DNA of 64,000 nucleotides, taken from contig JAMPIL010000002.1 of NCBI GenBank assembly GCA_023662725.1, positions 62,001 through 126,000 of the forward strand, read 5' to 3'. The DNA is from Ruminococcus flavefaciens (GTDB lineage Bacteria; Bacillota; Clostridia; Oscillospirales; Ruminococcaceae). A model generated the notes under the pieces. That model was not told the origin of the DNA. It did no database searches and was given only the letters and a program-made list of their open reading frames with translations. The position numbers and the translations under genes are program-made. Positions 34,878 through 40,982 of this stretch are shown here, piece after piece; the stretch's first letter is position 1; each line of letters begins with the position of its first letter.

Positions 34878-34906
34878 TTGACAAAGCCGATTCAATGTGT
34901 TACAAT
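34878..34906 (+). promoter_or_regulatory. Promoter of the pyruvate formate-lyase locus
   Basis: TTGACA and TACAAT are separated by 17 bases, with TGTG before the -10. The start codon is 40 bases downstream. Confidence 0.8.
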
Positions 34907-34945: not shown

Positions 34946-37009
34946 ATGACTAAAACTTGGCCACAGGAATGGGAAGGCTTCGCAGAAGGACGCTGGAGCA
35001 ATACTTCTGTAAATGTCCGAGATTTTATTAAGAAAAATTACACACCTTATGACGGCGATGAGAGCTTCCTCGCTGGTCCTACAGATGCTACTAAAAAGCT
35101 CTGGGATCAGGTTATGGATCTTACTCGTCAGGAAAGAGAAGCCGGCGGCGTTCTCGATATGGATACAAAAATCGTTTCCACTATCACATCTCATGGAGCT
35201 GGTTATCTTAACAAAGATCTTGAACAGATCGTTGGACTTCAGACAGATAAGCCTTTCAAGCGTTCACTTCAGCCTTTCGGCGGTATCAGAATGGCACAGA
35301 ATGCCTGCACACAGAACGGTTACGAAGTTGATCCGGAAATCGTAAAGATTTTCACAAAATATAGAAAAACTCACAATCAGGGTGTTTTCGATGCTTATAC
35401 TCCTGAAATGCGTATGGCTCGTAAGTCTGCTATTATCACGGGTCTTCCTGATGCTTACGGAAGAGGACGTATCATCGGCGACTACAGAAGAGTTGCCCTT
35501 TACGGTATTGATATGCTCATTGAGGATAAGAAGCATCAGATCGAAACTTCACTTGTTCGTATGACTTCAAAGAATATCCGTCTCCGTGAAGAACTTGCTG
35601 AACAGGTTCGTGCTCTCGAAGAACTCAAGGAACTTGGAAGCATTTACGGCTTCGATATCTCAAAGCCTGCTGCAACTGCCAAGGAAGCTGTACAGTGGCT
35701 TTATTTCGGTTACCTTGCTGCCGTTAAGGAGCAGAATGGCGCTGCTATGTCTCTTGGACGTACGTCAACTTTCCTTGATATCTACATTCAGCGTGATATC
35801 GACAGAGGAATTCTTACAGAAGAACAGGCTCAGGAACTTATCGACCACTTCATCATGAAGCTTCGTATCGTTAAGTTCGCAAGAACTCCTGAATATAACG
35901 AACTTTTCTCCGGCGACCCGACATGGATCACAGAATCTATCGGTGGTGTTGACGTAGACGGTCACCACTTTGTTACAAAGAACAGCTTCCGTTATCTTCA
36001 TACTCTTGAAAATCTCGGAACTGCTCCAGAGCCGAATATGACAGTTCTCTGGTCACAGAAGCTTCCGAGAAAGTTCAAGGAGTACTGCGCAAAGATGTCC
36101 ATCAAGACATCATCTATCCAGTATGAGAACGATGACATGATGCGTGTTACTCACGGTGACGACTACGCTATCGCTTGCTGCGTATCTTCAATGAGAGTCG
36201 GCAAGGAAATGCAGTTCTTCGGAGCAAGAGCAAACCTTGCTAAGTGTCTCCTTTACGCTATAAACGGAGGCGTTGACGAGAGAATGAAGGTTCAGGTCGG
36301 TCCTAAGTACAGACCTGTTGAGGGCGATTACCTCGACTTTGACGATGTTTGGGAGAAGTATGATTCCATGATGGAATGGCTTGCCGGACTTTATGTTAAT
36401 ACACTTAATGTTATTCACTATATGCACGATAAATATTCTTATGAGAAGCTCCAGATGGCTCTTCATGACAGAGATGTAAAGCGTTACTTCGCAACAGGTA
36501 TCGCAGGACTTTCAGTTGTTGCCGATTCACTTTCTGCTATCAAGTATGCTAAGGTTAAGTGTATCCGTGACGAAAACGGTATCGTAACTGATTATGAGGT
36601 TGAGGGTGATTTCCCGAAATACGGTAATAACGACGACCGTGTTGACCAGATCGCTGTTACGGTTGTCCGCAACTTTATGGAGAAAATCAAGAAACACCAT
36701 ACATACCGTGACGGTGTTCCTACAATGTCTATCCTTACTATTACTTCAAATGTTGTTTATGGTAAGAAGACAGGTAATACTCCTGACGGAAGAAGAATGG
36801 GAGTTCCGCTTGCTCCCGGAGCAAATCCAATGCACGGAAGAGATACTCATGGCGCAGTTGCTTCACTCGCTTCTGTTGCAAAGCTTCCTTTCAGACACGC
36901 ACAGGACGGTATTTCAAATACATTCTCAATCGTTCCAAATGCTCTTGGTAAGGATATGGACGTATTTATGGGCGAGATCGACCTTGATCAGCTTAAGGGA
37001 GAAAAATAA
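34946..37009 (+). CDS. Pyruvate formate-lyase core, lacking the glycyl-radical domain
   Basis: PFL converts pyruvate and CoA to acetyl-CoA and formate. The 687-residue protein matches PFL from [12 protein letters not shown] to the end of the barrel, including the catalytic Cys411-Cys412 (AIACCVSSM) and [17 protein letters not shown]. It ends after [19 protein letters not shown] with a short [12 protein letters not shown] tail. Ordinary PFL (about 745-760 residues) continues through a glycyl-radical domain ending in RVSGYAV, which is missing here and encoded separately 237 bases downstream. The start at 34946 follows AAGAAGGAG; a longer open frame upstream includes the promoter. The stop overlaps the next start (TAATG). 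Confidence 0.93.
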
Positions 37010-37224
37010 TGCTTGAATCCAATGTTTTCGGAAAGGCTCAGAATCCGGATGAGCTTGTCGATCTGATCGATAGTCTTATGTCGGACGGAACGGGTCATGT
37101 TAATATATTTTCCAATGATGACAGCGACAGCTTGAAGGTTGAAACCGTAAATAGTACCGATTGCGGTATTAAAGGGGCTTGCTGTCAGCCAACAGAAGAC
37201 GCAATTGACGAGGACGAGGATTAA
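37009..37224 (+). CDS. Small Cys-tailed protein inside the split pfl locus
   Basis: I do not recognise a family. The 71-residue protein starts on the last base of the pfl core, so it should be translationally coupled. Its first half (NPDELVDLIDSLMSDGTGHVNI) resembles the start of the glycyl-radical protein that follows ([22 protein letters not shown]). Instead of the radical loop it ends with Val/Thr/Ser-rich sequence, then DCGIKGACCQP (Cys52, 58, 59) and an acidic tail. This suggests a decayed or repurposed duplicate of the glycyl domain, perhaps binding the core or a metal. The role is unknown. Confidence 0.7.
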   Translation: MLESNVFGKAQNPDELVDLIDSLMSDGTGHVNIFSNDDSDSLKVETVNSTDCGIKGACCQPTEDAIDEDED

Positions 37225-37245
37225 TTTTAACAGGAGGATATTGTT

Positions 37246-37485
37246 ATGGATAATCAGAAACAGGTTGACAATCTTATCGAACTTCTTGATGGATACGTTG
37301 AAAAAGGCGGTCACCACCTTAATGTAAACGTTTTCACAAGAGAAACACTTCTTGATGCTCAGGCTCACCCGGAGAAATATCCGCAGCTTACTGTAAGAGT
37401 ATCTGGTTATGCAGTAAACTTTGTAAAGCTTACAAAGGAACAGCAGGATGACGTTATTTCAAGAACTTTCCACGCTGCACTCTAA
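37246..37485 (+). CDS. Autonomous glycyl-radical domain of pyruvate formate-lyase
   Basis: The 79-residue protein is the C-terminal domain of PFL standing alone: [35 protein letters not shown] and [17 protein letters not shown] all match the last part of usual PFL. Gly54, in RVSGYAV, is the expected radical site. It resembles YfiD/GrcA of Escherichia coli, which is a spare part for damaged PFL; here the core itself lacks this domain, so the protein should be a needed subunit. ACAGGAGG precedes the ATG. A terminator follows. No pfl-activating radical SAM enzyme is in the window. Confidence 0.92.
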
Positions 37486-37490
37486 TTAAC

Positions 37491-37530
37491 AAAAAGCCGG
37501 ACTGATTAAAAAACAGTCTGGCTTTTTATT
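37491..37530 (+). terminator. Rho-independent terminator of the pfl locus
   Basis: A 13-bp stem (AAAAGCCGGACTG with CAGTCTGGCTTTT, one G-U pair) ends in a T run. Confidence 0.9.
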
Positions 37531-37757: not shown

Positions 37758-37967
37758 ATGCCATTGACACTTGCAAATGCCGGCGAACAGCACACTATCC
37801 TGAAAATCGGCGGAACACCAGAGGTTAAAAAACATCTCGAAAATCTTGGTTTCGTTGCAGGAGGTTCTGTAACTGTCGTTAATACGATCGACGGGAATTT
37901 AATCGTTAACGTCAAAGAAACAAGAGTTGCTATAAGCCGTGAAATGGCTATGAAAATTATGGTTTAA
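37758..37967 (+). CDS. feoA: FeoA-family ferrous iron transport protein
   Basis: The 69-residue protein is an SH3-like FeoA domain (MPLTLANAGEQHTILKIGG; ENLGFVAGGSVTVVN; ISREMAMKIMV). FeoA-like proteins help FeoB, which imports Fe2+. It is the first gene of feoA-feoA-feoB-Cys-rich protein, and is preceded by CCAAGGAGG. A second, distinct FeoA follows 12 bases later, a common clostridial arrangement. Iron supply suits the many Fe-S and glycyl-radical enzymes of an anaerobe. Confidence 0.9.
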   Translation: MPLTLANAGEQHTILKIGGTPEVKKHLENLGFVAGGSVTVVNTIDGNLIVNVKETRVAISREMAMKIMV

Positions 37968-37979
37968 GGAGAAGATAAA

Positions 37980-38204
37980 ATGAATCTTAAAGAAGCAAAA
38001 ATCGGAGATACAGTCAAGGTTAAAAAACTCACCGGCGAGGGCGCTGTAAAACGCCGTATTATGGATATGGGAATTACAAAGGGTGTCGAAGTTACGGTCC
38101 GCAAAGTTGCTCCCCTTGGCGATCCTATAGAAGTTACAGTGAGAGGATATGAGCTTTCGCTCCGTAAAGCTGATGCTGAAATGATTGAGGTTGAGAAAGT
38201 ATAA
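37980..38204 (+). CDS. feoA: Second FeoA-family protein
   Basis: The 74-residue protein is another FeoA domain, with LKEAKIGDTVKVKKLTGEGAV, DMGITKGVEVTVRK and PLGDPIEVTVRGYELSLRK, the last being the classical FeoA end. It is closer to Escherichia coli FeoA than the first copy. TTAAGGAGAAG precedes the ATG. A hairpin (38213-38244) separates it from feoB. Confidence 0.92.
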   Translation: MNLKEAKIGDTVKVKKLTGEGAVKRRIMDMGITKGVEVTVRKVAPLGDPIEVTVRGYELSLRKADAEMIEVEKV

Positions 38205-38212
38205 TATTATAA

Positions 38213-38244
38213 GCGAATTGAGACTGAAAGCGGTTTCAATTTGC
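38213..38244 (+). promoter_or_regulatory. Intercistronic hairpin between feoA and feoB
   Basis: A 12-bp stem with G-U pairs, GCGAATTGAGAC with GTTTCAATTTGC, is not followed by a T run. It may set the relative level of feoA and feoB mRNA, or be an RNA-processing site. Confidence 0.4.
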
Positions 38245-38294
38245 TCTGTATTAAGAATATATGCTCACATATTTAATTGAAGGAGAGGTTTAAA

Positions 38295-40808
38295 ATGAGT
38301 ATAAGAATCGCACTTGCGGGTAATCCGAACTGCGGTAAAACAACGCTTTTTAACGCCTTGACAGGTTCCAATCAGTTCGTTGGAAACTGGCCTGGTGTAA
38401 CTGTTGAAAAGAAAGAAGGAAAACTTAAAAAACATGAAGGTGTAGTTATTACCGATCTTCCGGGAATTTATTCGCTTTCTCCGTATACGCTTGAAGAGGT
38501 TGTTGCAAGAAATTATCTTATCGGTGAGCGTCCGGACGCTATTTTGAATATAATTGACGGAACAAATCTTGAGCGAAACCTCTATCTTACAACACAATTG
38601 ACCGAAATCGGAATCCCTGTGGTTCTGGCAGTCAATATGATGGACATTGTAAGAAAAAACGGAGATAAAATCAATCTTGATGAGCTTTCAAAAGCAATCG
38701 GATGCAAAGCTGTTGAAATATCGGCTCTTAAAGGCGAGGGGATTTCTGAAGCAACTGAAGCAGCGATAAATGCTGCAAAATCCGGAAAGACTATTCCTCA
38801 GCATACATTTTCCGGTCCTGTTGAACACGCTCTTGCACATATTGAAGAAGCTGCGTTACATAATATGTCTGAGGAGATGCAGCGCTGGTATGCTATAAAA
38901 ATTTTCGAGCGTGATGAAAAGGCTCTTGAAAAGCTGAATCTTTCTGAAAATATTATGAAACATATGGAACAGGATATTCAGACCGTCGAAAAGGAAATGG
39001 ATGATGACGCTGAATCGATCATAACCAACGAACGTTATGAATATATTTCAAAAATCATCGGTAAGTGTCTTAAAAAGAAAAACAAAGGCGGTCTTTCCAC
39101 ATCGGATAAGATCGACAAGATCGTTACAAATCGCTGGCTCGGACTCCCTATTTTTGCTGTAATAATGTTCCTTGTTTACTATATTTCCATGGTAACAGTC
39201 GGAACTGCTGCAACAGATTGGGCTAATGACGGACTTTTCGGTGACGGATTCCATCTTTTGGGCATCGGTTCGAGCGAAACTGCTGAAAATGAGGAAAAAT
39301 ACGGCGATACAAATGCGATTATAGAAGGTTTCCTTGCTCAGGCAGAAGCCGACGGCTACAACATTAATGCTGCATCTGCTGCTATTGATACGGAAGCAGA
39401 CGATTTCAGTGCGGAAATTGCTGAAACAGAACTGAATGCTCTTGCGGCAAAATATACCGACAGCAGTTTCGAGTTCGAGTATGAGCTTGAGGATGAAGAA
39501 ACGCTTGCAGTTTCAACAGAAACGGCTTCTATCGGCGATTTGAATGACTCAATTGCTCTTTTCAAGGAGTACGATGGTGGAGTTGATCCGGCAAATTACG
39601 GAACTTGGGTTCCGGGAATACCGGTTCTTATTGAAAAGCTGCTCGGAGAAAGCTGTCCTGATTGGCTTCATGGTCTTATCATAGACGGCATTGTAGGCGG
39701 TGTTGGAGCAGTTCTCGGATTTGTTCCGCAGATGCTTGTTCTCTTTCTGCTTCTTGCTTTTATCGAGGCTTGCGGTTATATGGCAAGAGTTGCTTTCGTT
39801 CTCGACCGAATTTTCCGCCGCTTTGGTCTTTCCGGCAAATCGTTTATCCCGATACTTATCGGAACAGGATGCGGAATTCCGGGTATCATGGCTTCCAGAA
39901 CTATTGAGAATGAACGTGACCGCCGCATGACTATCATGACGACAACTTTCATTCCATGCGGAGCTAAAACGCCTTTCATCGCAATGATTGCCGGAGCAAT
40001 TTTCGGCGGTTCAGCTTGGGTTGCAGTTTCGGCTTATTTCCTCGGAATGGCAGCTATAATCATTTCAGGCATCATCCTCAAAAAAACAAGAATGTTCTCC
40101 GGCGATCCGGCGCCGTTCGTTATGGAGCTTCCGGCTTATCATATGCCAACAGCAGGAAACGTTCTCCGTTCAATGTGGGAGCGTGGCTGGTCGTTTATCA
40201 AGAAAGCCGGAACCATTATCCTTCTTTCAACTATCGTAGTATGGTTCTTAACCTTCTTCGGAACAGTTGACGGCTCATTCAGAATGCTTGCAGAAGACGA
40301 GCTTGACAACAGCGTTCTTGCAACTATCGGTAAGGGCATTGCATGGATCTTTGCACCTCTGGGCTGGGGCAACTGGCAGGCTGCTGTTGCGTCGGTTACA
40401 GGTCTTATTGCAAAGGAAAACATCGTTGGAACATTGGGCGTACTTTTCGGTGCAGGAGAAGCATCGGTTTACACAGCTCTTGCAGAGCAGTTTACAGCTG
40501 TTGCAGGATATTCGTTCCTCGCATTCAATCTTCTCTGCGCACCTTGTTTCGCAGCGATCGGAGCTATCAGACGTGAGATGAACAGTCCTAAGTGGACATG
40601 GTTTGCAATCGGTTATCAGTGCGGATTCGCTTATATCGTTGCATTCGTTATCAATCAGCTTGGAACATTGTTTTCAGGCGACGTAAAAGGATTGGGAATA
40701 GTCGGAGCAGTTCTTTCATTCGCAATTATAGCATTGGCGATTTATCTCATATTTAAGCCTTATAAAGAATCTACAAAATTTACTAAAAAGATCAGGGCTT
40801 CAAAGTAA
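38295..40808 (+). CDS. feoB: Ferrous iron transport protein FeoB
   Basis: FeoB is the Fe2+ permease with an N-terminal G domain. G1 (GNPNCGKTTLFN, residues 8-19), G3 (DLPGIYSL) and G4 (NMMD) are clear, followed by a helical spacer and two Gate-type membrane cores. The start at 38295 follows AGGAGAGG. At 837 residues it is longer than usual: between the first two membrane segments lies an extra, acidic stretch (about 325-435) of Ala, Glu and Asp. Otherwise the core is standard, including GSCGIPGIMASRT-like TGCGIPGIMASRT and AKENIVGTLG. Confidence 0.95.
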   Translation: MSIRIALAGNPNCGKTTLFNALTGSNQFVGNWPGVTVEKKEGKLKKHEGVVITDLPGIYSLSPYTLEEVVARNYLIGERPDAILNIIDGTNLERNLYLTTQLTEIGIPVVLAVNMMDIVRKNGDKINLDELSKAIGCKAVEISALKGEGISEATEAAINAAKSGKTIPQHTFSGPVEHALAHIEEAALHNMSEEMQRWYAIKIFERDEKALEKLNLSENIMKHMEQDIQTVEKEMDDDAESIITNERYEYISKIIGKCLKKKNKGGLSTSDKIDKIVTNRWLGLPIFAVIMFLVYYISMVTVGTAATDWANDGLFGDGFHLLGIGSSETAENEEKYGDTNAIIEGFLAQAEADGYNINAASAAIDTEADDFSAEIAETELNALAAKYTDSSFEFEYELEDEETLAVSTETASIGDLNDSIALFKEYDGGVDPANYGTWVPGIPVLIEKLLGESCPDWLHGLIIDGIVGGVGAVLGFVPQMLVLFLLLAFIEACGYMARVAFVLDRIFRRFGLSGKSFIPILIGTGCGIPGIMASRTIENERDRRMTIMTTTFIPCGAKTPFIAMIAGAIFGGSAWVAVSAYFLGMAAIIISGIILKKTRMFSGDPAPFVMELPAYHMPTAGNVLRSMWERGWSFIKKAGTIILLSTIVVWFLTFFGTVDGSFRMLAEDELDNSVLATIGKGIAWIFAPLGWGNWQAAVASVTGLIAKENIVGTLGVLFGAGEASVYTALAEQFTAVAGYSFLAFNLLCAPCFAAIGAIRREMNSPKWTWFAIGYQCGFAYIVAFVINQLGTLFSGDVKGLGIVGAVLSFAIIALAIYLIFKPYKESTKFTKKIRASK

Positions 40809-40820
40809 AGGAGCGTTAAT

Positions 40821-40982
40821 ATGCATTCTTGGATAATAGCGCTTATTATACTTACAGCAGCTGTTGCACTTATAATTTATAGTCTTATAAGAGATAAAAA
40901 GCATGGGAAATCTTCTTGCAGTCACGGATGCAGCAACTGCGCAATGCACGGACAATGTTATAAAGGAAAAAATAAATTTTAA
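40821..40982 (+). CDS. FeoB-associated Cys-rich membrane protein
   Basis: This 53-residue protein has one membrane helix (residues 4-22), then a basic stretch and a Cys-rich end, CSHGCSNCAMHGQC. It fits the FeoB-associated Cys-rich family, found after feoB in many Firmicutes and thought to help iron transfer. AAAGGAGCG precedes the ATG, and feoB stops 12 bases before. Confidence 0.9.
   Translation: MHSWIIALIILTAAVALIIYSLIRDKKHGKSSCSHGCSNCAMHGQCYKGKNKF

Follow-up and report, generated by a model that had tools for sequence, protein, structure and literature searches.

In Escherichia coli, the small protein GrcA (YfiD) carries a glycyl radical in trans for the core of the pyruvate formate-lyase (PFL) PflB, where it serves as a repair device beside the full-length enzyme. 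According to the available part of one study, a PflB G734A variant gives no active PFL without GrcA (PMC12338860). The accessible portion of another describes a truncated core, tPFL (residues 1–695), with a kcat of 121 per s in the presence of YfiD and 204 per s with truncated YfiD, which lacks the first 60 residues, compared with 105 per s for PFL (PMC8683613). In the same portion of that work, tPFL:YfiD was activated 32-fold less than cPFL:YfiD, no tPFL binding was seen by ITC, and E. coli residues 696–733 were needed for YfiD binding/activation. This deficit implies that a naturally split PFL must solve the problems of binding and activation rather than that of catalysis.

Two kinds of database record are also relevant. 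The NCBIfam family NF038360 (autonomous glycyl radical cofactor GrcA3) covers a small radical protein alone; no paper using the term GrcA3 was found in the part of the literature covered. The PDB entries 38la and 38lb, both named 'Formate acetyltransferase', contain PFL chains without the radical domain; these have 687 residues in 38la and 739 in 38lb. The 38la chain stops at LGKED, the point at which a radical domain would be expected, and 38lb continues past the core end with GECDMCEMK and about 40 further residues. No description of a naturally split PFL was found among the matches listed in the part of the literature covered, and none by term in PMC11528403, PMC13252398 and PMC12288474.

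The locus described here lies in a stretch of 64,000 nucleotides (the window) from a Ruminococcus flavefaciens genome of 3,109,639 bases in 70 contigs, with a stated completeness of 99.96%. It consists of three genes on the plus strand (34946–37485), which encode, in order, a PFL core of 687 residues (34946..37009), a protein of 71 residues here called MID (37009..37224), whose ATG overlaps the stop codon of the core gene by one base (TAATG), and a radical subunit of 79 residues (37246..37485) preceded by AGGAGG. As in E. coli, a small protein would carry the glycyl radical in trans. Unlike in E. coli, the radical loop is missing from the core, the small protein is 79 residues long compared with 127 for GrcA, and the genes for the two flank that of a third protein. 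The initial annotation had described this range as a PFL split into a core and a 79-residue radical protein; the split is real and the range correct. It counted the gene in between but missed MID and its alternation with a cysteine tail of the core. It also knew of no earlier account of such an enzyme, which agrees with the part of the literature covered but overlooked the GrcA3 family and the two PDB chains. With GrcA3 already named and PFL chains without the radical domain in the PDB, the split is not entirely without precedent; what appears to be new is MID, together with its probable kinship with the radical domain and the way in which it alternates with the cysteine tail.

A terminator-like hairpin followed by a T run is found 3′ of the three genes (37491..37527, plus strand), with a folding energy of -19.7 kcal/mol (z -6.93; 0/200 shuffles as good); its loop of 9 exceeds the loop limit of 8 of the pattern scan, which did not return it. 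Just upstream of the core gene there is a promoter-like site (34878..34906, plus strand; TTGACA-17-TACAAT, TG before the second hexamer, 11/12 matches), which is suggestive only; the region has 8 such sites compared with a shuffle mean of 7.1, not above the shuffles. Two FeoA-like genes, a FeoB-like gene and a gene for a small Cys-rich protein (names by reading) follow the PFL unit at 37758–40982; the Feo-like genes are read as an ordinary iron uptake set.

The core alone scores 1143.4 bits against the PFL family model TIGR01255 (cut-off 994.2) and is thus a member of the family. The model is matched only to position 666 of 744, however, and Pfam Gly_radical only at positions 2–50 of 106, in agreement with the earlier view that the core has no radical site of its own. 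In the PDB, the core is matched best by 38la and 38lb. Its vicinal cysteines C411-C412 (codons 36176–36181), noted as catalytic in the initial annotation, align with the ACCVS motif of E. coli and are invariant in 17 cores (set A6), which have 87–93% identity to the core of the window. The median dN/dS of the core is 0.044 (saturated pairs left out: 35/60).

The glycyl-radical loop is encoded by the separate gene for the radical subunit, which carries RVSGYAV with Gly54 (codon 37405–37407) as the radical glycine and matches positions 50–106 of the 106 in Pfam Gly_radical. It belongs to the GrcA3 family (NF038360; 166.8 bits, curated cut-off 158) and not to GrcA/YfiD (TIGR04365), whose cut-off of 170 is not reached by its 96.3 bits. 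The median dN/dS is 0.042 (saturated pairs left out: 239/400), and there is no cysteine in 17 radical subunits (set A5). When the three proteins were searched against PHROGs, only the core and the radical subunit gave matches, both to families whose function is given as unknown; PADLOC gave no match for core, MID or radical subunit. The predicted function of the set is that of PFL, the conversion of pyruvate and CoA to formate and acetyl-CoA.

The genome was searched for a full-length PFL outside the locus and none was found: the single PFL-like match is the split core itself, and a second PFL was rejected as a candidate on this basis. The suggestion that the radical subunit might be shared among several cores finds no support here, as there is only one. 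Gly_radical gave three matches, the two halves at the split locus and one on another contig, which from its translation appears to be an anaerobic ribonucleotide reductase. The NrdD-like frame of this genome (L003, G000:C21:11393-13473) has only 360 codons, compared with 772–792 in 14 of 16 NrdD-like rows from other genomes of the genus; it comes after a phage-repressor-like frame and is possibly interrupted or a different gene. A PFL-activating enzyme is encoded on another contig (G000:C70:6136-6831; 307.9 bits, cut-off 231.75).

In the genus, 54 of the 60 genomes covered encode the radical domain by itself, in an open reading frame of 79–167 codons. Four of the other six had no match, one (G050) had a single weak match, read as NrdD-like, and one (G058) had a fused PFL only. 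The last resembles, as we presume, the PFL of Bifidobacterium, and its contig is suspected of being a contaminant. A fused enzyme found in addition to the split locus in another genome (G028:C12) was read as a different glycyl radical enzyme and rejected as a PFL; its active-site stretch is VSGCAECR and not ACCVS. One genome (G045) has an extra partial match, and a contig of a Ruminococcus metagenome-assembled genome (L035) contains a 99% match to the MID gene of the window. In G044, the only Gly_radical matches are the two of the split PFL, with none outside the locus. R. flavefaciens produces formate, according to the accessible part of PMC8865330. Taken with the sole PFL found in the genome and the genome that has the split form only, this suggests, by inference, that the split enzyme is the PFL at work in R. 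flavefaciens.

Several simpler accounts of the locus have to be weighed against this. An error of sequencing or assembly, raised at the outset as a frame error that could have parted a single gene, is practically excluded, with nothing found in its favour and the same split present in the 54 genomes of the genus and in other genera and families. The radical protein is related to E. coli GrcA/YfiD, as its TIGR04365 score shows, and it could be imagined that a fused PFL does the work and that the 79-residue protein only repairs it. This is highly improbable given that no fused PFL was found in a genome stated to be 99.96% complete, so that the radical subunit has no full-length PFL of the same genome to serve, that the separate reading frame prevails in the genus, and that the protein is both below the GrcA/YfiD cut-off and shorter than E. 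coli GrcA. It is also very unlikely that the core is no longer a PFL and that the set is decaying or doing something else. The low dN/dS values, the invariant C411-C412 and high identity of the 17 cores, the activase kept in the genome and the formate made by the species (PMC8865330, available part) all argue against it.

The locus is therefore best read as encoding the only PFL found in this organism, an obligately heteromeric enzyme with an exchangeable radical subunit, with a probability of roughly 0.8 for this reading as a whole; that the enzyme consists of two chains is very probable. The initial annotation had held that catalysis must need a two-chain complex, and such a catalyst is feasible since, in the part of PMC8683613 available, the truncated E. 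coli core, once activated, matches the activity of the wild type when combined with its spare part. In the mechanism proposed, the radical subunit would dock its own strand into the open barrel of the core, and the PFL-activating enzyme would install the radical on Gly54. The radical would then move to C411/C412, with turnover as in E. coli PFL. Renewal of the radical subunit after oxygen damage is plausible.

The split arrangement is also found in other genera and families. Among the matches listed, a stand-alone radical reading frame is present in at least 24 of 148 genomes at the level of the family and at least 23 of 391 at that of the class, where 21 pass the GrcA3 cut-off by tally; two of 299 genomes pass it at the level of the phylum, both of the same class. 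In many of the loci outside the genus, the radical gene is followed by an activase-like frame (by motif), where the window has the Feo-like genes. For a tree of the core, 84 loci were tried, of which 79 gave a segment, and six identical segments were dropped to leave 73. The tree needs two changes of the split/fused label. All 47 split rows fall in one group (SH-aLRT 96) that also contains four fused rows, two near its base (L005 and L206) and two deep inside (L169 from G532 and L170 from G528). The sampled split cores thus appear to form essentially one clade with one re-fusion, that of L169 and L170, whose fused PFLs have no Cys after the radical domain. One split core near the base of the group (L167) is long-branched and its placement is unsure.

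MID (P0002) has no Pfam or NCBIfam match at E up to 1. It is present in 28 of 29 fetched genus loci with a stand-alone radical gene (L004, L007–L034), and the exception (L029) is truncated at the end of its contig. The median dN/dS is 0.224 (saturated pairs left out: 334/400). Three sets of sequences were used: A1, with 23 Ruminococcus rows; A2, with 71 Ruminococcus MIDs, from which L044 and L094 (no start codon in the window scanned) and three near-copies are excluded; and A4, with 26 diverse MIDs. The position of the gene varies. In G354 it comes after the radical gene, and in G169 it is on another contig than the split core, which has no tail. This lone gene away from the split PFL (L126/L140, G169:C47) lies beside a TetR-like frame (name by reading).

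Profile comparisons make it probable, without proving it, that the first half of MID and the beginning of the radical domain are homologous. GrcA3 is matched by 15 of the 26 diverse MIDs at E up to 1, with a best value of 2.5e-4. The comparison of A4 with the radical subunits (A5) by hhalign gave 95.2% (E 2.6e-8) and a score of 43.1 over MID 5–34, compared with at most 17.1 when the columns of either alignment were shuffled (300 times each) and 8.7 for the reversed profile. Mapped via the radical subunit, MID 5–34 corresponds to about residues 677–711 of E. coli PFL. The A4 profile scores the 17 radical subunits at 19.7–29.4 bits. In the 391 genomes of the class it has matches in 72, of which 10 are strong (E 8.2e-17 or better), and all 10 of these genomes fall among the 23 with a stand-alone radical reading frame, among the matches listed. 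The weak matches (69 rows) are confined to about positions 1–40, and all 19 of those inspected lie in reading frames that carry the radical motif. No row of A1 (23) or A4 (26) has the radical glycine of RVSGY; a Cys-containing stretch takes its place.

Other controls for this kinship were weaker. With the 71 Ruminococcus MIDs alone, hhalign against the radical subunits gave 14.6% (E 0.0018), and the A1 profile scores the radical subunits at only 3.9–14.1 bits, below troponin C of the PDB (19.9 bits). Under the A1 profile, the helix-loop of the Ruminococcus MIDs is similar to part of an EF-hand, and troponin C was the best match of this profile in the PDB (E 0.0055, positions 6–33). Kinship with troponin C was rejected as chance, since it is absent with A4 (one centrin, E 7.9), with which the radical subunits rise to 19.7–29.4 bits. 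In the PDB, the A4 profile found no glycyl-radical chain at E up to 10; its best match there, a designed helical protein (E 1.1e-4), was also judged to be chance. The entries 38la and 38lb were not among the matches of the MID profiles or of the radical subunit.

The second half of MID contains C52, C58 and C59 and an acidic end. The element C-x(3,6)-A-C is found in 70 of the 71 MIDs of A2 and 25 of the 26 of A4. Of the 23 A4 MIDs that could be measured, 19 have the second Cys 28–31 residues past the strand glycine (24, 36, 37 and 39 in the other four); by the same count, the strand glycine and the radical glycine are 32 residues apart in three radical subunits. Where a core has two or more Cys after its DGISNTF stretch, it is said to have a tail; MIDs were assigned by hand. 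On these definitions, the 47 split rows of the tree comprise 28 with a MID only, 15 with a Cys tail only, four with neither (L161, L162, L151 and L167) and none with both. The Cys element is thus not indispensable. Neither MID nor Cys tail is present in five fused PFL ends. The tails are without the helix-strand part of MID, and in 7 of 15 they contain C-x-x-G-A-C-x-x-P-T-L, like the end of many MIDs; the extension of 38lb chain A is perhaps a Cys tail. On the tree, MID changes eight times and the tail six times. A phylogeny-aware independent-pairs test of MID against tail, with only four usable pairs, was not significant.

A Cys pair near the C-terminus is also known from class I ribonucleotide reductase (RNR), which has a 10-stranded barrel and cysteine chemistry (PMC4390871, available part), and in which the C-terminal pair of E. 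coli NrdA belongs to a relay of thiols leading to the active site (PMC4390871 and PMC5704485, available parts). The end of NrdA, DDGCESGACKI, contains C-x-x-G-A-C, as do 7 of the 15 core tails; at least two Cys near the C-terminus are found in 15 of 47 core ends, and MIDs have them too. The other eight tails and most MIDs have other Cys spacings, however, and PFL, unlike RNR, has no net reduction to pay for. A profile of tails and MID ends (A7) found no chain in the PDB at E up to 10, RNR chains included, which for so short a profile is a weak test. The likeness between the core tail and the end of NrdA is treated as a resemblance only.

The role of MID is less clear than that of the other two proteins. 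In a tentative proposal, MID would be what is left of a C-terminal segment once joined to the core (residues 677–711 or so in E. coli). It would help the radical subunit to bind or to be activated, much as residues 696–733 of E. coli cPFL help YfiD, and would bring a Cys pair to the core; other lineages would carry this pair as a core tail. As a probable relative of the E. coli segment, MID is a candidate for solving the binding and activation problem of a split PFL, with the Cys pair as an added function, and MID or tail may help in binding, activation or protection. The estimate for this role was lowered because of the weaker controls, namely the A1 scores and the search of the PDB with A4.

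MID could instead be a placeholder or inhibitor that occupies the slot of the radical subunit, closes the barrel and shields C411/C412 until activation or in oxygen stress. Its residues 5–34 can be aligned to the half by which the radical subunit would dock, and such a shared part suggests competition for one site, and the second Cys lies at a distance from the strand glycine near to that of the radical glycine. Against such a role, which is judged rather unlikely, the E. coli core's own copy of the segment helps the spare part and does not block it (PMC8683613, available part), the Cys-pair tails of other cores are without the docking part, and the kinship of MID with the radical domain itself has the weaker controls. 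A further idea, of doubtful standing, is that the enzyme uses two interchangeable fingers at the same active site: catalysis would fall to a radical finger (GrcA3), with MID or the core Cys tail as a second, thiol finger. Like the C-terminal dithiol of RNR, the latter would keep or reset C411/C412 or quench stray radicals when the radical finger is absent. If opening the barrel made a dithiol arm useful, this would account for the mutual replacement of MID and tail in split PFLs and for the absence of both from the five fused ends. Its probability, small from the start, was reduced further because the tail profile returned no RNR chain.

If the reading of the locus as a sole, obligately heteromeric PFL is correct, a textbook anaerobic enzyme known for its fragility to oxygen would permanently be a multi-chain assembly in bacteria of the gut and rumen, one whose radical part can be exchanged. 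The idea of a spare part would then become a regular enzyme architecture and not a repair curiosity, and natural two-chain systems would let radical installation, exchange and oxygen damage be examined separately from catalysis. An unnamed family of small proteins, MID, would be tied to this split architecture, and the lineages with MID, with a tail and with neither would provide swappable natural variants for the role of the Cys pair.
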